A stretch of 57,921 nucleotides of DNA. Source: Alphaproteobacteria bacterium (lineage in GTDB: Bacteria; Pseudomonadota; Alphaproteobacteria; UBA8366; GCA-2717185). The DNA lies in the NCBI GenBank assembly GCA_040905865.1, contig JBBDQU010000008.1, forward strand, positions 1 through 57,921. The letters run 5' to 3'. A program made the translations under genes and the position numbers. The notes beneath the pieces are model-generated. The model saw only the letters and a program-made list of their open reading frames with translations. It was not told the origin of the DNA and made no database searches. Below are positions 19,597 through 27,740 of the stretch, one piece after another (the stretch's first letter is position 1; every line of letters begins with the position of its first letter).

Positions 19597-20742
19597 ATGC
19601 TGACGAACGAATTCTATGGGAGTGAAAGAATGAAAAAGGTCAAGAAGACGATATCCCAGGCGGCTGCCGGTCTGGCGGTCATGTCATTCGGCATGTTCAG
19701 CTTCGGGAGCGCGACGGTTGCTGTCGGCGCCGAATTAAACCTTGAAGGGGAAACCGTTACCTTCGCCATACCCTTTTCCGAAGCGGGCGGTTCGGCGAAA
19801 TGGGCTAATTTCTATGCGCCGCTGCTGAGCGAAGCGCTGCCGGGCAAACCGACCGTCGTGGTAAAATACATGCCCGGCGCCGGGTCGACCAAGGGCGCGA
19901 ACTGGTTTCAGACACAGAAATACAAGGATGGCACGCTGGTATTCGGCACGTCGGGTTCAACACAGTTTCCCTATCTTCTGGACGATCCCCGGGCGAAGTA
20001 TGAATACAACGACTGGCATGTGGTCCTGGCCTCCGGCACCGGCGGCGTGGTCTTCCTGCCGCCCGATATCGCCAGGAAATTCGACGGCGACGCGGATGAC
20101 TTGAAGGACATAAATTTCATCTGGGGCGCGCAGGGCCCCACGCAGCTTGACCTCGTGCCGCACCTCGCCTGGGAAATGCTCGGGATGAAGGTCGAGCCTG
20201 TCTTCGGCATCAAGAGCCGGGGCGACGGGCGCCTGATGTTCGAGCGTGGCGAGGCGAATATCGACTACCAGACCTCCGCCGGTTACCTGAAGAGCGTGGT
20301 CCCGCTGGTCGAAGCCGGCAAGGCGGTCCCGATGATGAGCTGGGGCACCCTGGATGATAACGGTAATATCGTTCGCGATCCGACCTTCCCGGACCTTCCG
20401 ACGTTCAAGGAAGTCTGTGAAGCGACCGCTGGCTGCAAGACGTCTGGCGAAGCCTGGGATGCATGGAAAGCCTTCTTCATTGCTGGCTTCCCGGCACAGA
20501 AGATGGTGTTCCTGCCAAAAGGCGCACCCAAGGACGCCATCGCGACCTACGACAAGGCGTTCAAGGCCGTCCTGGCGCGTCCCGATTTCAAGGAACTGTC
20601 GGAAGTGACACTGGGGGATTATCCCCAGATGACCGGGACGGCGGCGGAAACGGCGCAGAAACTGGCGACAAATGTGCCGCCGAGCGCGAAGGTCTATGTC
20701 AAACAGTGGCTGCACGACCGGTTCGGCGTGAAGCTGCAATAG
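19597..20742 (+). CDS. TTT-family periplasmic binding protein (TctC-like)
   Basis: 381 residues with an N-terminal signal peptide (positively charged MKKVKKT followed by a hydrophobic stretch to about SATVAVGAE). AAGGAG precedes the ATG at 19597; a second ATG at 19630, also with a purine-rich site, would start exactly at the charged region. The mature part has the TctC pattern: VTFAIPFSEAGGSAKWANF, the PGAGSTKGANWF loop, and a Gly/Ser loop at FGTSGSTQFPYLL. It captures an unknown, probably carboxylated, solute for the adjacent permease. A strong hairpin follows 17 bases after the stop. Confidence 0.85.
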   Translation: MLTNEFYGSERMKKVKKTISQAAAGLAVMSFGMFSFGSATVAVGAELNLEGETVTFAIPFSEAGGSAKWANFYAPLLSEALPGKPTVVVKYMPGAGSTKGANWFQTQKYKDGTLVFGTSGSTQFPYLLDDPRAKYEYNDWHVVLASGTGGVVFLPPDIARKFDGDADDLKDINFIWGAQGPTQLDLVPHLAWEMLGMKVEPVFGIKSRGDGRLMFERGEANIDYQTSAGYLKSVVPLVEAGKAVPMMSWGTLDDNGNIVRDPTFPDLPTFKEVCEATAGCKTSGEAWDAWKAFFIAGFPAQKMVFLPKGAPKDAIATYDKAFKAVLARPDFKELSEVTLGDYPQMTGTAAETAQKLATNVPPSAKVYVKQWLHDRFGVKLQ

Positions 20743-20839: not shown

Positions 20840-22855
20840 ATGGATATGTTGGCAACCGCCCTTCCTGCACTGGGGAGCGCCTTGGCGCTGATAATGCAGC
20901 CCGAACAGCTGATGTTCCTGGCTGCCGGCGTGCTGCTCGGCCTGTCTGTCGGGGTATTCCCGGGACTGGGCGGAATCGCCGGGCTGTCGCTCGTGCTACC
21001 CTTCATGTTCGGAATGGAGCCGGTGTCGGGGCTGGCGCTGATGGTAGGCCTTGTCGCGGTCGTCCCCACCTCGGACACCTTCGCAAGCGTGTTACTGGGT
21101 ATTCCCGGTTCATCGGCGAGCCAGGCAACGGTCCTCGACGGGTTTCCTATGGCTCGGAAAGGGGAAGCGGCGCGCGCCCTTTCCGCTGCCTTTGCATCCT
21201 CCCTTTTTGGCGGGCTGTTCGGGGCCTGTGTCCTGACCTTCTTTATCCTGATTGCGCGGCCCCTTGTTCTGGCGTTCGGCCTGCCCGAGATGCTGATGAT
21301 CACCATTCTGGGGCTTTCGATGGTCGCGATCCTGGCCGGCCGGATCCCCGTCAAGGGCATCGCCTCGGCGGGGCTTGGCCTGATGGTCGGCACCATCGGC
21401 GAGGCCGCCGCCGGCGGCAACCTGCGCATGGCGACTTACGACGTTCCCTATCTGATCGACGGTTTGTCGCTGGTCATCGTGGGCCTGGGTATTTTCGCCA
21501 TCCCCGAAATCGTTGCGCTGCTCCGGCATGACAGGACGATCTCCAGATCGGGCGGCCTGGGCGCTGGCTGGTTGACAGGGGTTCGTGACTGGTTGCGGAA
21601 CATTTTCCTGTCGATCCGGTGTTCGGTTATCGGCGTCATCGTCGGCGTCATCCCCGGGCTCGGCGGTTCCGTCGTGGACTGGATTGCCTATGGCCATACC
21701 ATACAGTCCAGCCGGGACAAGTCGCGATTCGGTCAGGGGGACGTACGGGGCGTGATCGGCCCGGAATCATCCAATAACGCCAAGGAAGGCGGCGGCCTGG
21801 TGCCCACCCTGATCTTCGGCATACCCGGCAGCGGCTCCATGGCTGTATTCCTGGGCGGGCTGGCGCTGCTGGGGATCGATGTCGGGCCGCAGATGATCAC
21901 CAATGACCTGGACATCACCTATACCATCGTCTGGTCTCTGGCGTTCGCGAATGTACTGGGCGCGGGGCTCTGTATCGCGCTGTCGACCCCGATCGCGCGG
22001 CTGACCACCATCCGGTTCACGTTGCTCGCGCCGTTCCTGCTGATGATGATCGCCTTCGCGGCGTTCCAGTCACGCCAGTCGCTGGGTGATCTGGTCGCGC
22101 TCTTTTCGGTCGGCCTGCTGGGTATCTTCCTGCGCCGGTTCGACTGGTCGCGGCCGGCCTTCCTGATCGGCTTCGTGCTCTCGCACCAGGCCGAGAATTT
22201 CAGCAGCATGGCGAACCAGGTTGCGCAGGCGAAATTCCGCATCGCGTTCGAGGCCGGGTTCGAGTATATCGCCTCGCCCATCGTGCTGATCATTCTGGCG
22301 CTCACCGTTGTTTCAATAATCGTGGCCATCCGGCAGGCCAAGCAGATTCTGCCGGAAGGCGATGTCCCCACCGGCAGGAAGCGGGCGCCGTTGATCTTCC
22401 TTCTGGCGATCACCGCATACCTCGCTGTCGCCTGGGTTGACGCCATGCTGATCGACCTGACCACCGACAAGATATTCCCTGTTCTGATCTCGTCGGTATC
22501 GCTTGTCTGCTGTCTGGTGCTGCTCATCCGCATGATGCGGGCGCCCGAGACGGATGGCATCTTCGCCGACCGCGAGGCCGGCCGGGAAGCCACGGACGCA
22601 ACACATGGCCTCTGGAGCAACCTGGCGTGGTTTGCCGCGCTGCTGGTGCTGTCCTCCCTGCTGGGCTTCATCCTGGCGCTTGCAATCTTCCTCGTCACCT
22701 TCATGCGGGTCCGGGCAGGGCTAACATGGGCGTGGACCCTGATTTATTCGGCAAGTGGCATCGTGTTCATGATCGCGTTGGCGGGAACGCTGAACCGCGA
22801 CTTCCCGCCGGGGCTCCTGCAGAACTTCGTCGAACTGCCCTGGCCATTCGTATGA
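20840..22855 (+). CDS. TTT permease, TctA-TctB fusion
   Basis: 671 residues, longer than the usual TctA of about 500. Residues 1 to about 505 are TctA: many membrane spans, GVFPGLGGIAGLSLVLPFMFG, LGIPGSSASQATVLDGFPMARKG, GVIPGLGGSVVDWIAYGH and FGIPGSGSMAVFLGG. From about 515 to the end there are four more hydrophobic segments with a pattern like the small subunit TctB (APLIFLLAITAYLAVAW; FPVLISSVSLVCCLVLLIRMM), so both membrane subunits appear fused. With the upstream binding protein this gives a complete TTT importer in two genes. Such fusions are known but less common. Confidence 0.85.
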   Translation: MDMLATALPALGSALALIMQPEQLMFLAAGVLLGLSVGVFPGLGGIAGLSLVLPFMFGMEPVSGLALMVGLVAVVPTSDTFASVLLGIPGSSASQATVLDGFPMARKGEAARALSAAFASSLFGGLFGACVLTFFILIARPLVLAFGLPEMLMITILGLSMVAILAGRIPVKGIASAGLGLMVGTIGEAAAGGNLRMATYDVPYLIDGLSLVIVGLGIFAIPEIVALLRHDRTISRSGGLGAGWLTGVRDWLRNIFLSIRCSVIGVIVGVIPGLGGSVVDWIAYGHTIQSSRDKSRFGQGDVRGVIGPESSNNAKEGGGLVPTLIFGIPGSGSMAVFLGGLALLGIDVGPQMITNDLDITYTIVWSLAFANVLGAGLCIALSTPIARLTTIRFTLLAPFLLMMIAFAAFQSRQSLGDLVALFSVGLLGIFLRRFDWSRPAFLIGFVLSHQAENFSSMANQVAQAKFRIAFEAGFEYIASPIVLIILALTVVSIIVAIRQAKQILPEGDVPTGRKRAPLIFLLAITAYLAVAWVDAMLIDLTTDKIFPVLISSVSLVCCLVLLIRMMRAPETDGIFADREAGREATDATHGLWSNLAWFAALLVLSSLLGFILALAIFLVTFMRVRAGLTWAWTLIYSASGIVFMIALAGTLNRDFPPGLLQNFVELPWPFV

Positions 22856-22934
22856 TCCGGAACGCCGGCATTGATGTCATGGGCTCGCCACGTGTGGTAT
22901 GGTTGGCAGCGTAACGAGGTTAAGAGGTGACAGG

Positions 22935-23477
22935 ATGAACCAGACGAGGACGCTGTACGACCCGACGTCGGAGCAGCAGGCTGCCGGGCGGCCCCGCCTG
23001 CCGAGGCCCGCATCGCTGGACGGGCTGACCGTCGGTGTGCTGGATATTTCCAAGGTCCGCGGCGATGTCTTTCTCGACCGGTTGGCGAAGCGGCTGGTCG
23101 AGCACGGCATGAATGTGAAGCGCTACAGGAAAGCCACCGTGGCGCGGCCCGCCGCGCTGGAAATCCAGCAGGCCATCGCCGCGGAATGCGACGTGATGGT
23201 CGAAGGGCTGGTGGACTGAGGCGCCTGTACGTCGTGCTGTACGCATGACCTTGCCAACATCGAAGCCCGCGGCATTCCCTCGGTCGCCGTCGCAACGGAG
23301 CAGTTCATCCAGGCCGCCGCCACGCAGGCGGGGCTGCTCGGCACCGATCCGGACTACATCTGGGTGCCGCACCCGATCCAGGACCGCACCGATGCGGAAC
23401 TGCAGGCGATGGCGGATAAATACCTGGACCAGATCCTGACGGCGCTAACGCGGCAGGTGGCGCAGGCCGCCGACTGA
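22935..23477 (+). CDS. UGSC-family protein with in-frame TGA, candidate selenoprotein
   Basis: Start ATG 22935 after AAGAGGTGAC. The first 94 codons match the UGSC N-terminal pattern (SLDGLTVGVLDISKVRGDVFLDRL, here given in parts: TVGVLDISK and GDVFLDRL). Codon 95 is TGA (23217-23219). Reading on in the same frame gives Gly-Ala-Cys-Thr-Ser-Cys-Cys-Thr-His-Asp-Leu, then IEARGIPSVAVATEQF and 60 more residues to a TGA at 23475. That is just what the family shows after its Sec/Cys-Gly-x-Cys motif. A weak hairpin (GTAC stem, loop GTCGTGCT, 23227-23242) follows. Sec insertion is strongly suggested by homology; selenium genes are not in the window. The family's reaction is unknown. Confidence 0.78.
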
Positions 23478-23500
23478 GCAGGAGCGGCAGCGCCGTGACG

Positions 23501-24238
23501 TTACGGCATGCCGCCGCCGACCCGGATATTCGCGCCCGCGACATAGGACGCCTTGGGCGACAGCAGCCACACGATCGCTTCGGCAATTTCTTCCGGCTGC
23601 GCGACGCGCCCGATAGGAATCTTCGGTCCGTCCCGCACCAGCCGGTCGGCGGGCGGCATGTCGGTTTCGGTCAGTCCGGGCGCGACGGTGTTGACCCGGA
23701 TACCCTCGCCGATCACCTCCTGCGACAACCCGATGCCGAGGCTGTTTACCGCGCCTTTCGACGCCGCATACTGGATGCCGACATTTGGATTCCCCTTGTT
23801 TGCCGAGCCGGACGAGACGTTGACAATTGCGCCGCCCGCGCCGCCATGCGCGGTGGACATCCGTAGCACCGCCTCGCGCGAACAGGTGAACAGCCCGGCG
23901 ACGTTCACCGCAAGGACCTGCATGACATCCGCTTGCGTCAGGGCATCGAGCCTGCCGCGCGGCCCGTAAATACCGGCATTGTTTACCAGCCCGGTCAGCG
24001 TGCCAAGTTCGGCGTCGACCGTCCTGAAAAGCCGGATAACGTCGCTTTCGACGGCGGTATCGACCTGTACGGCGATGCCGCGCCGGCCCGCCGCCTCGAT
24101 ATCCGCGACCACGGCCAGAGCTTCATTCTTCGCCGATTTATAGGCGACGCATATGTCGTGTCCCGCTGCCGCGCAAAGCCGCGCAGTCGCCGCGCCGATG
24201 CCCCGGCTGGCGCCAGTGATCACGGTAATCTGTTTCAT
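23501..24238 (-). CDS. SDR family oxidoreductase (FabG-like)
   Basis: 245 residues from the ATG at 24238 with AGGAG nine bases upstream. A classical short-chain dehydrogenase: the nucleotide loop TGASRGIGAATARL near the N-terminus, NNAG (NNAGIYGPRG), catalytic Ser in NVSSGSAN, and YAASK. The acidic-residue region AYKSAKNE after beta-2 suggests NADP(H), with low certainty. It ends with the family's C-terminal ANIRVGGGM. It oxidises or reduces an alcohol/ketone of unknown identity. It converges on the UGSC gene and is divergent from the TSUP gene. Confidence 0.92.
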   Translation of the reverse strand: MKQITVITGASRGIGAATARLCAAAGHDICVAYKSAKNEALAVVADIEAAGRRGIAVQVDTAVESDVIRLFRTVDAELGTLTGLVNNAGIYGPRGRLDALTQADVMQVLAVNVAGLFTCSREAVLRMSTAHGGAGGAIVNVSSGSANKGNPNVGIQYAASKGAVNSLGIGLSQEVIGEGIRVNTVAPGLTETDMPPADRLVRDGPKIPIGRVAQPEEIAEAIVWLLSPKASYVAGANIRVGGGMP

Positions 24239-27233: not shown

Positions 27234-27740
27234 ATGGCGACCACGACGACGACCATGACCGCGAAAAAATCCACCGGTGCCAGGAAACCAGCTGCCCGGA
27301 AACCGGCGGTGAAAAAGGCCATACCGAAGAAGGCTGCCGCCAGTACGAGGACCGTGAAGAAGCCGGCTGCAAAAAAGGTAACGGCGAAGGCCGCGGCGGC
27401 AAAGGTTGCGCCGAAGAAGGCTGCGGCGAAGAAGCCCGTTGAGAAAAAGGCTGTTGCCGGGAAACCTGCCGTGATGAAATCCGCGCCTAAAAAGGCCGCT
27501 GCGAAGAACGCCACGCCCGCCAGCAAGACGGTAACAAAGAAATCCGTCGCGAAGAAGCCGGTCGCCCGCAAGGCGACACCGAAGAAGATTGCGTCAAAGG
27601 CGACGGCGGTGAACAAGCCGGTCGCCGGCATGGCAGCGCCGAAAAAGACGGTTGCGAACAAGCCGGTGACGCGCAAAGCCGCCGCCCTGAAGCCGAAGAC
27701 AACCAGCCGCGGCCGCACGAGCTCGCGTAAGGTGGCCTGA
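27234..27740 (+). CDS. Histone H1-like Lys/Ala/Pro-rich protein
   Basis: 168 residues, almost all Ala, Lys, Pro, Val and Thr, with many KKA, AAKK and KKP repeats (for example KKPAAKKVTAKAAAAK). There is no folded domain. Similar to the C-terminal tails of AlgP and other bacterial H1-like proteins that bind DNA non-specifically. The high positive charge and low complexity make homology hard to prove; nucleic-acid binding is inferred from composition. The 269 bases upstream are free of genes. Confidence 0.7.
   Translation: MATTTTTMTAKKSTGARKPAARKPAVKKAIPKKAAASTRTVKKPAAKKVTAKAAAAKVAPKKAAAKKPVEKKAVAGKPAVMKSAPKKAAAKNATPASKTVTKKSVAKKPVARKATPKKIASKATAVNKPVAGMAAPKKTVANKPVTRKAAALKPKTTSRGRTSSRKVA

Follow-up and report, generated by a model that had tools for sequence, protein, structure and literature searches.

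A UGSC-family selenoprotein gene of an alphaproteobacterium, its constant partner protein and a probable kinship to the glycine reductase subunit GrdB

The gene found at positions 22935-23477 of the window, the 57,921-nucleotide stretch of alphaproteobacterial DNA that was analysed, almost certainly encodes a true selenoprotein of a known family, UGSC. A first-pass annotation of the same DNA had already identified the gene, correctly; what is added here is a constant partner protein and a kinship to GrdB, the latter probable. UGSC may belong with this partner, which carries a thioredoxin domain, in a two-part selenium-dependent reductase.

As the annotation had stated, the family is known from marine surveys: it is the "UGSC-containing protein" of the GOS survey, whose table places it among the commonest selenoprotein families of aquatic metagenomes, with 255 selenocysteine (Sec) forms and 21 Cys forms (PMC2398784). 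A 2026 review counts UGSC as one of the families with largely uncharacterised functions (PMC13188914).

From the ATG at 22935 the reading frame is open to 23475, except for a TGA at 23217-23219, and coding is conserved on both sides of this in-frame UGA (Table 1). The peptide that follows it reads GACTSCCTHD...IEARGIPSVAVATEQF, beginning with the ten residues (Gly-Ala-Cys-Thr-Ser-Cys-Cys-Thr-His-Asp) that had been read there before. Aligned to the models of the family, the protein passes both curated cut-offs: it matches Pfam UGSC (PF24696) with an E-value of 3.4e-43 and 148.2 bits (cut-off 25), over residues 7-172 of a 181-residue translation that includes the final stop (profile positions 2-171 of 172), and NCBIfam NF041046 (UGSC_fam) with 140.5 bits (cut-off 125). 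UGAC at residues 95-98 occupies the family's [U/C]GxC position, a column common to the 47 aligned members, so that the U of codon 95 falls on the family column; the motif in the window is UGAC, whereas the motif that names the family is UGSC. Since a single UGSC match covers both halves of the gene and homologues carry TGA at the same column, the arrangement is not due to chance, and the earlier claim of a UGSC-family gene whose frames before and after the TGA are in phase and both family-like holds, down to its coordinates and peptide. Mechanical ORF calling stops at 23219, the split that the annotation had foreseen, and the truncation of such genes at the UGA is a concern for annotation in general.

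Table 1. Positions of the features discussed, numbered from the first nucleotide of the window
Feature	Position	Strand	Details and basis
Partner protein, 481 aa: thioredoxin-fold N-terminus (CPTC, residues 1-101) and domain of about 330 aa	17865..19310	+	Pfam/NCBIfam, alignment, model
Gene between partner and UGSC	19597..20742	+	No Pfam/NCBIfam match at 1e-3
TctA-type tripartite transporter membrane protein, weak TctB-like tail	20840..22855	+	Pfam TctA E 5.1e-113
Shine-Dalgarno-like AAGAGGTG	22922..22929	+	Ends 5 nt upstream of ATG; read from sequence
UGSC-family selenoprotein gene	22935..23477	+	180 aa, Sec codon 95, ordinary stop TGA 23475-23477; Pfam, NCBIfam
Sec-UGA codon, motif U-G-A-C-T-S-C (UxxCxxC)	23217..23219	+	Sequence; homologue column
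Possible lower stem of the SECIS-like element (23220-23223 with 23252-23255)	23220..23255	+	Fold of window sequence
Bacterial SECIS-like apical hairpin, 7-bp stem GTCGTGC/GCATGAC, loop TGTAC	23231..23249	+	MFE fold; comparative pairing

The occurrence of the in-frame TGA was surveyed in 98 genomes, the source genome included. UGSC was found in 26 of them, with 125 matches. A single TGA is present in 123 of these, one of which has a TAA as well, whereas the remaining two end before the Sec column; in this survey TGA was counted anywhere inside the match, and the column itself was checked in the loci examined. These loci include the best 80 of at least 582 confirmed places that were recovered from the genome collection with the partner profile. 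A UGSC gene lies near the partner in 78 of these 80, and as the set was selected by the partner, this figure tells how often a window-type partner has a UGSC and not the reverse (L100 holds only the start of UGSC, at a contig end, and L128 none in the sequence examined). One locus, L062, ends before the Sec codon, and in the 77 that remain of the best 80 the Sec column holds TGA in 75 and TAG in two. Over all loci examined, TGA stands at the Sec column in 110 matches, with G next in all 110; these provide 105 distinct 60-nt stretches, about five being duplicates or running off the end.

The two TAG loci belong to Candidatus Blastococcus massiliensis (L090) and Geodermatophilus obscurus (L134, 7662-7664). 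Both genomes have a tRNA-Sec-like gene (RF01852, 64-65 bits) with the anticodon CTA (L136, L137), on account of which ARAGORN labels these genes Pyl. UAG-encoded Sec in UGSC-motif proteins of the Geodermatophilaceae has already been published (PMC5330540, citing Mukai et al. 2016).

The annotation had let its claim depend on homologues with Cys or Sec at this column and on the presence of selB and selC in the genome, and had suggested a search for all four sel genes. The homologues carry UGA, or UAG in two genomes, and no Cys form of UGSC was found among the loci examined. The source genome (4.37 Mb, 85 contigs, 100% complete) possesses selA, selB, selC and selD. Its tRNA-Sec gene, at C25:28379, scores 68.3 bits with RF01852 and is called tRNA-SeC(tca) by ARAGORN, hence with the anticodon TCA (the second RF01852 match above cut-off in the genome is a tRNA-Ser); SelB is matched with 461 bits, SelA with 563 bits on the same contig, and SelD with 300 bits. 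In each of the five UGSC genes of this genome there is one in-frame TGA. One of the paralogues (C25:30706) is found, together with its partner gene, no more than 3.3 kb from the tRNA-Sec gene, a LysR-type regulator standing between them. Three further genes (C10:29187-29816, C5:150177-150785 and C36:69374-70036) match TIGR01918 (GrdB/PrdB-type) below its cut-off and have one in-frame TGA each; together with the UGSC copies they probably make eight selenoprotein genes in this genome.

UGSC and the decoding machinery also occur together across genomes. SelB (E up to 1e-60) was detected in 23 of the 98: 21 genomes contain both UGSC and SelB, 70 neither, five UGSC only and two SelB only, and the five UGSC genomes without SelB are all at most 88% complete. 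When only the 61 genomes with a completeness of 90% or more and a contamination of 5% or less are counted, UGSC occurs in nine and SelB in ten, including all nine. A SelA-type gene begins 40-67 nt after UGSC in six of the best 80 loci (of at least 582), followed by a SelB-type gene in four of the six. In the clustered neighbourhoods, which comprise the 80 loci, four loci of the source genome and a stretch of the window, SelA is present in nine and SelB in seven; these neighbours were assigned by cluster, and NCBIfam confirmed two SelA, one of them the SelA-type gene of L065, and one SelB.

Folding of the RNA past the TGA, which the annotation had proposed as a check, yields a SECIS-like hairpin. 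The minimum free energy (MFE) structure of 23217-23262 (46 nt, -12.1 kcal/mol) has a 7-bp stem with arms at 23231-23237 and 23243-23249, and a loop UGUAC (23238-23242) that starts 18 nt past the TGA. Published rules for bacterial SECIS elements give a loop of 3-9 nt located 16-37 nt past the UGA and with a G in its positions 1-2, a stem of 4-16 bp and an MFE of -7.5 kcal/mol or lower (PMC13188914). The hairpin at 23231-23249 lies within these constraints, with a loop of 5 nt, a stem of 7 bp, G in loop position 2 and a distance of 18 nt. Taken alone, the window sequence is no more stable when folded than shuffled versions of it (z -0.52), so that the support for a SECIS element is comparative.

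This comparison covered 104 distinct homologues, namely the 105 without the copy fused to its partner (L025), whose divergent sequence at this place led to its omission. Pairing in the stem amounts to 95.9% of cells, compared with 94.3% for shuffles, none of 500 being as high, and nine cells of the stem are changed on both sides. At the base of the stem A-U replaces G-C in six sequences, and at its top C-G is replaced by G-C (L036, L053) or U-A (L069), with a single unpaired cell in L052. Two pairs show double change, a number that 31 of 500 shuffles reach. When the stem was slid by +2 the covariation score was 0.144 against 0.113 for the real stem, with only 51.0% of cells paired, and a slide of +3 gave 11 doubly changed cells against nine, with only 41.1% paired. 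All 104 homologues have xGT as the loop codon, and where it encodes Ser it is AGT in 76 of 76 cases, compared with 71 of 805 Ser codons elsewhere in the same genes; the sequences being related, a p-value of this comparison should not be read as a probability. When the 45 nt past the UGA were randomised synonymously, the mean z was -1.81 (109 genes), against -0.12 to -0.42 for five control stretches (107-109 genes). The possible lower stem lacks conservation, only 45.0% of its cells being paired across the 104 homologues, and an Rfam scan of 22800-23600 with E up to 1 returned no match.

The annotation had picked another hairpin, formed by GTAC arms (23227-23230 with 23239-23242) and a U-G pair, and had judged the spacing to be closer than usual. 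This hairpin can form in the window but shows no covariation in the 104 homologues: 85.4% of its cells are paired against 85.3% in shuffles, 232 of 500 being as high, and 63 of the 104 lack its middle pair; it was rejected as the SECIS element. The spacing had seemed abnormal because of that choice, and the loop of the conserved hairpin, at 18 nt, is inside the published range. On the comparative evidence, the UGA at 23217 would be decoded as Sec by SelB and tRNA-Sec(UCA), with the hairpin at 23231-23249 as the directing signal.

At 1e-3, neither Pfam nor NCBIfam gives a match to the partner protein encoded upstream. Comparison of 46 members with Pfam (E up to 1) gave TraF for 23 (best 1.4e-5), Thioredoxin_2 for 14 (best 5e-4), Thioredoxin for nine, and other families for at most three members each; the domain of about 330 aa has no family match in Pfam or NCBIfam, the 46 members against Pfam included. 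In the AF2 model of the protein (pLDDT 89.5, pTM 0.82), residues 1-101 align with 6z7o with a Z of 10.1 and an rmsd of 2.1 A over 90 residues. The structural matches are filled by the thioredoxin domain, the large domain being barely covered, and a PDB sequence search with the partner profile gave nothing up to E 10. The N-terminus shares with thioredoxin the fold and the CPTC site, whereas the protein as a whole differs from it by the attached large domain without family match and by its weak Pfam scores. Alignment also reveals a partner subfamily, of the L017 type, without the thioredoxin domain.

UGSC and the partner (E up to 1e-10) are present in the same 23 of 59 genomes, and the other 36 lack both. 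Each of the five UGSC copies of the source genome has a partner, which is directly upstream in three, separated by two genes in the window and fused to UGSC in the fifth, on contig C40 (L025). In loci from other genomes the partner is within 1.5 kb of UGSC in 28 of 29, the exception being L047, where it is split over two frames and about 5.3 kb away. The window, with its partner 3.6 kb upstream, differs from many of the fetched loci, in which UGSC directly follows the partner. Mean column identity is 63% for the partner and 61% for UGSC. Three partner copies stand in tandem beside one UGSC in G009:C151, G007:C146 and G010:C330, which means that the stoichiometry is not fixed. In a record of the same genus (L163, 2315-3755) the partner gene is split over two frames with residue 378 at the junction, either by an assembly error or by a frameshift.

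In the fused paralogue L025, the alignment lacks two partner Cys that are nearly invariant elsewhere, and the sequence after the UGA is different. The GOS survey describes a UGSC/Unknown_1 fusion, in which UGSC is joined to an uncharacterised domain (PMC2398784). L025 is likewise UGSC fused to an uncharacterised domain, and Unknown_1 is likely to be the partner domain. Apart from this fusion, no named partner and no link to GrdB were found in the UGSC passages of a largely open-access literature.

UGSC itself was modelled by AF2 (pLDDT 90.8, pTM 0.84) with five strands alternating with five helices, Sec95 being placed immediately before helix 96-111. The best structural match, 8s7v_H, has a Z of 11.8 and an rmsd of 4.4 with 138 residues aligned; a designed protein comes next, and after it numerous receiver and other alpha/beta domains with Z around 10, which indicates that the fold is a common one. 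The 50 matches listed are receiver, flavodoxin-type, Rossmann and other alpha/beta domains and include no thioredoxin, a listing that does not exclude such a match. Foldseek gave query-normalised TM values of 0.36-0.50 among the 50 matches listed, and a PDB search with the UGSC profile gave four weak matches to NAD-binding domains of 3-hydroxyacyl-CoA dehydrogenases (best E 0.11). The prediction for UGSC is a small domain of flavodoxin-like (Rossmann-type) fold in which Sec95 opens a helix. As far as the model goes, this differs from the likely Trx-like fold given in the surveys (PMC2398784, PMC13188914).

Sequence comparison makes UGSC a probable relative of the Sec part of GrdB. With E-values of 0.1 or lower, TIGR01917 (glycine reductase selenoprotein B; best E 7.4e-5) is matched by 38 of 47 UGSC members and GrdF, NF040794 (best E 3.2e-5), by 33 of 47. 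The window protein itself is below the cut-offs of TIGR01917 (21.8 bits vs 602.2), TIGR01918 (17.4 vs 65.45) and NF040794, and has no match to PF07355. Alignment of UGSC with 11 GrdB-like proteins by hhalign gave 91% probability and an E of 1.1e-6, with Sec on Sec; a second GrdB-like pair gave 39%, and the partner against GrdB 0.7%. Removal of the motif columns lowered the 91% to 30% (reversed controls 0.5-1.9%), and gave 13.5% against the GrdB-like protein of L140 alone. A HMMER search of 13 GrdB-like proteins found only that of L140 (E 9.6e-4, database size 20,000), and the HMM without the motif columns found nothing in the same 13. Given this drop and this null result, the relation to GrdB is probable and not proved. 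PDB searches returned nothing up to E 1 with the GrdB-like profile, and nothing better than E 0.14 with the L140 protein alone.

UxxCxxC is the motif of GrdB, the substrate-binding subunit of glycine reductase (PMC13188914), and is fitted both by UGACTSC in the window and by UGTCTRC in the GrdB-like protein of L140. With the Sec domains of GrdB, GrdF, GrdH and PrdB (TIGR01917, TIGR01918, PF07355), UGSC shares the motif UGxCTxC and the Sec column, and about 80-100 residues around and after Sec align; it differs by its weak overall similarity, by having no GrdB N-terminal region and by its different partner. A pyruvoyl partner of the GrdE/PrdA type was considered and rejected: Pfam scans of the partner contain no such family, and the fused form is without the pair of Cys that is nearly invariant in the large domain. 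In the GrdB-like gene of L140 (1501-2865, minus strand) the match to PF07355 hits the last model position (347) at residue 369, one before Sec. This Pfam GRDB model of 347 positions seems to be truncated at the UGA, and its end before Sec may have hidden the relation between UGSC and GrdB.

Taken as a whole, the explanation towards which we lean, by a modest preference, is that UGSC and its partner act together as a Sec-dependent reductase with a GrdB-like Sec site. Sec decoding, the SECIS element, the constant partner, the thioredoxin domain of window-type partners and the UxxCxxC motif are shown by comparison; in the proposed reductase the partner would hold the substrate, Sec would serve as nucleophile or reductant and thioredoxin would recycle it. 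UGSC is found in association with the partner and would work with it, the thioredoxin-fold domain being the likely electron source. Most likely, the selenolate of Sec95 would attack an activated substrate held by the partner domain, leading to bond cleavage or to reduction of a group; this would leave a Se-S bridge between Sec95 and either Cys98 or Cys101, which the CPTC site would re-reduce, by analogy with GrdB and PrdB. The TctA transporter gene in the window faintly hints that the substrate may be a carboxylate. By way of background only, a GrdB-related operon has been proposed for fluoroacetate handling (PMC10838667), and GrdB-type proteins may accordingly act on compounds other than amino acids.

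A wider claim can be put forward only tentatively, namely that UGSC and the partner are a widespread and so far unrecognised Sec-dependent reductase, kin to the catalytic part of glycine and proline reductase and performing reductive cleavage of the GrdB/PrdB type, as a module of Sec protein, substrate domain and often built-in thioredoxin that reaches up to ten copies per genome (G035). Such cleavage is known from amino-acid-fermenting anaerobes, and if the claim is true this chemistry extends to lineages far from them. The constant partner and the GrdB motif together provide a testable biochemical hypothesis for UGSC.

Other explanations were weighed against the joint reductase. We give very little credence to the TGA being a true stop or a sequencing error in a broken UGSC pseudogene, as the end of the mechanically called ORF at 23219 would have it: sequencing error does not explain TGA at the Sec column in 110 matches with 105 distinct stretches, the four other UGSC copies of the source genome each have their one TGA, the half downstream of the TGA keeps the family sequence, and the genome has the sel machinery. 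It is rather unlikely, though a serious alternative, that UGSC is a selenoprotein of another kind, a Trx-like thiol-disulfide oxidoreductase or stress enzyme with no role in substrate cleavage. The surveys' description of a likely Trx-fold redox protein (PMC2398784, PMC13188914) and the thioredoxin domain of the partner speak for such an enzyme, whereas the five strand-helix alternations of the UGSC model, with no thioredoxin among the 50 matches listed (which does not exclude that fold), and a large partner as conserved as the Sec protein argue against it.

It appears improbable that UGSC, instead of being the catalytic subunit, transfers electrons to the partner, as an unrelated enzyme, or assists in its assembly. 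Those loci in which a single UGSC is accompanied by three consecutive partner copies would suit such a role, but UGSC and the partner occupy the same genomes and are once fused, and the motif UxxCxxC is that of GrdB, itself a substrate-binding subunit (PMC13188914).

As for the neighbouring genes, that at 19597-20742 may encode the substrate-binding protein of a tripartite transporter, judging from its look and its place before tctA. The TctB match in the TctA gene that follows (E 3.3e-4) is below cut-off. TctA and TctC were also recognised by Pfam near the UGSC copy on contig C25. An association with transporters as a rule was rejected, since by tblastn (E 1e-10) the window TctA protein matches one of 85 loci (L017) and the 19597 protein none of the 85. 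A genome of the same genus has other genes between partner and UGSC, including an aldo/keto reductase and a nitroreductase. Downstream of UGSC, a gene of the acetyl-CoA C-acyltransferase type occurs in ten loci, all from proteobacterial records, and the call was confirmed by NCBIfam for L117 (8030-9214). Further along the window, at 27234-27740, lies a Lys/Ala/Pro-rich ORF with KKPAAKK repeats that resemble histone H1, a name given from its look only.
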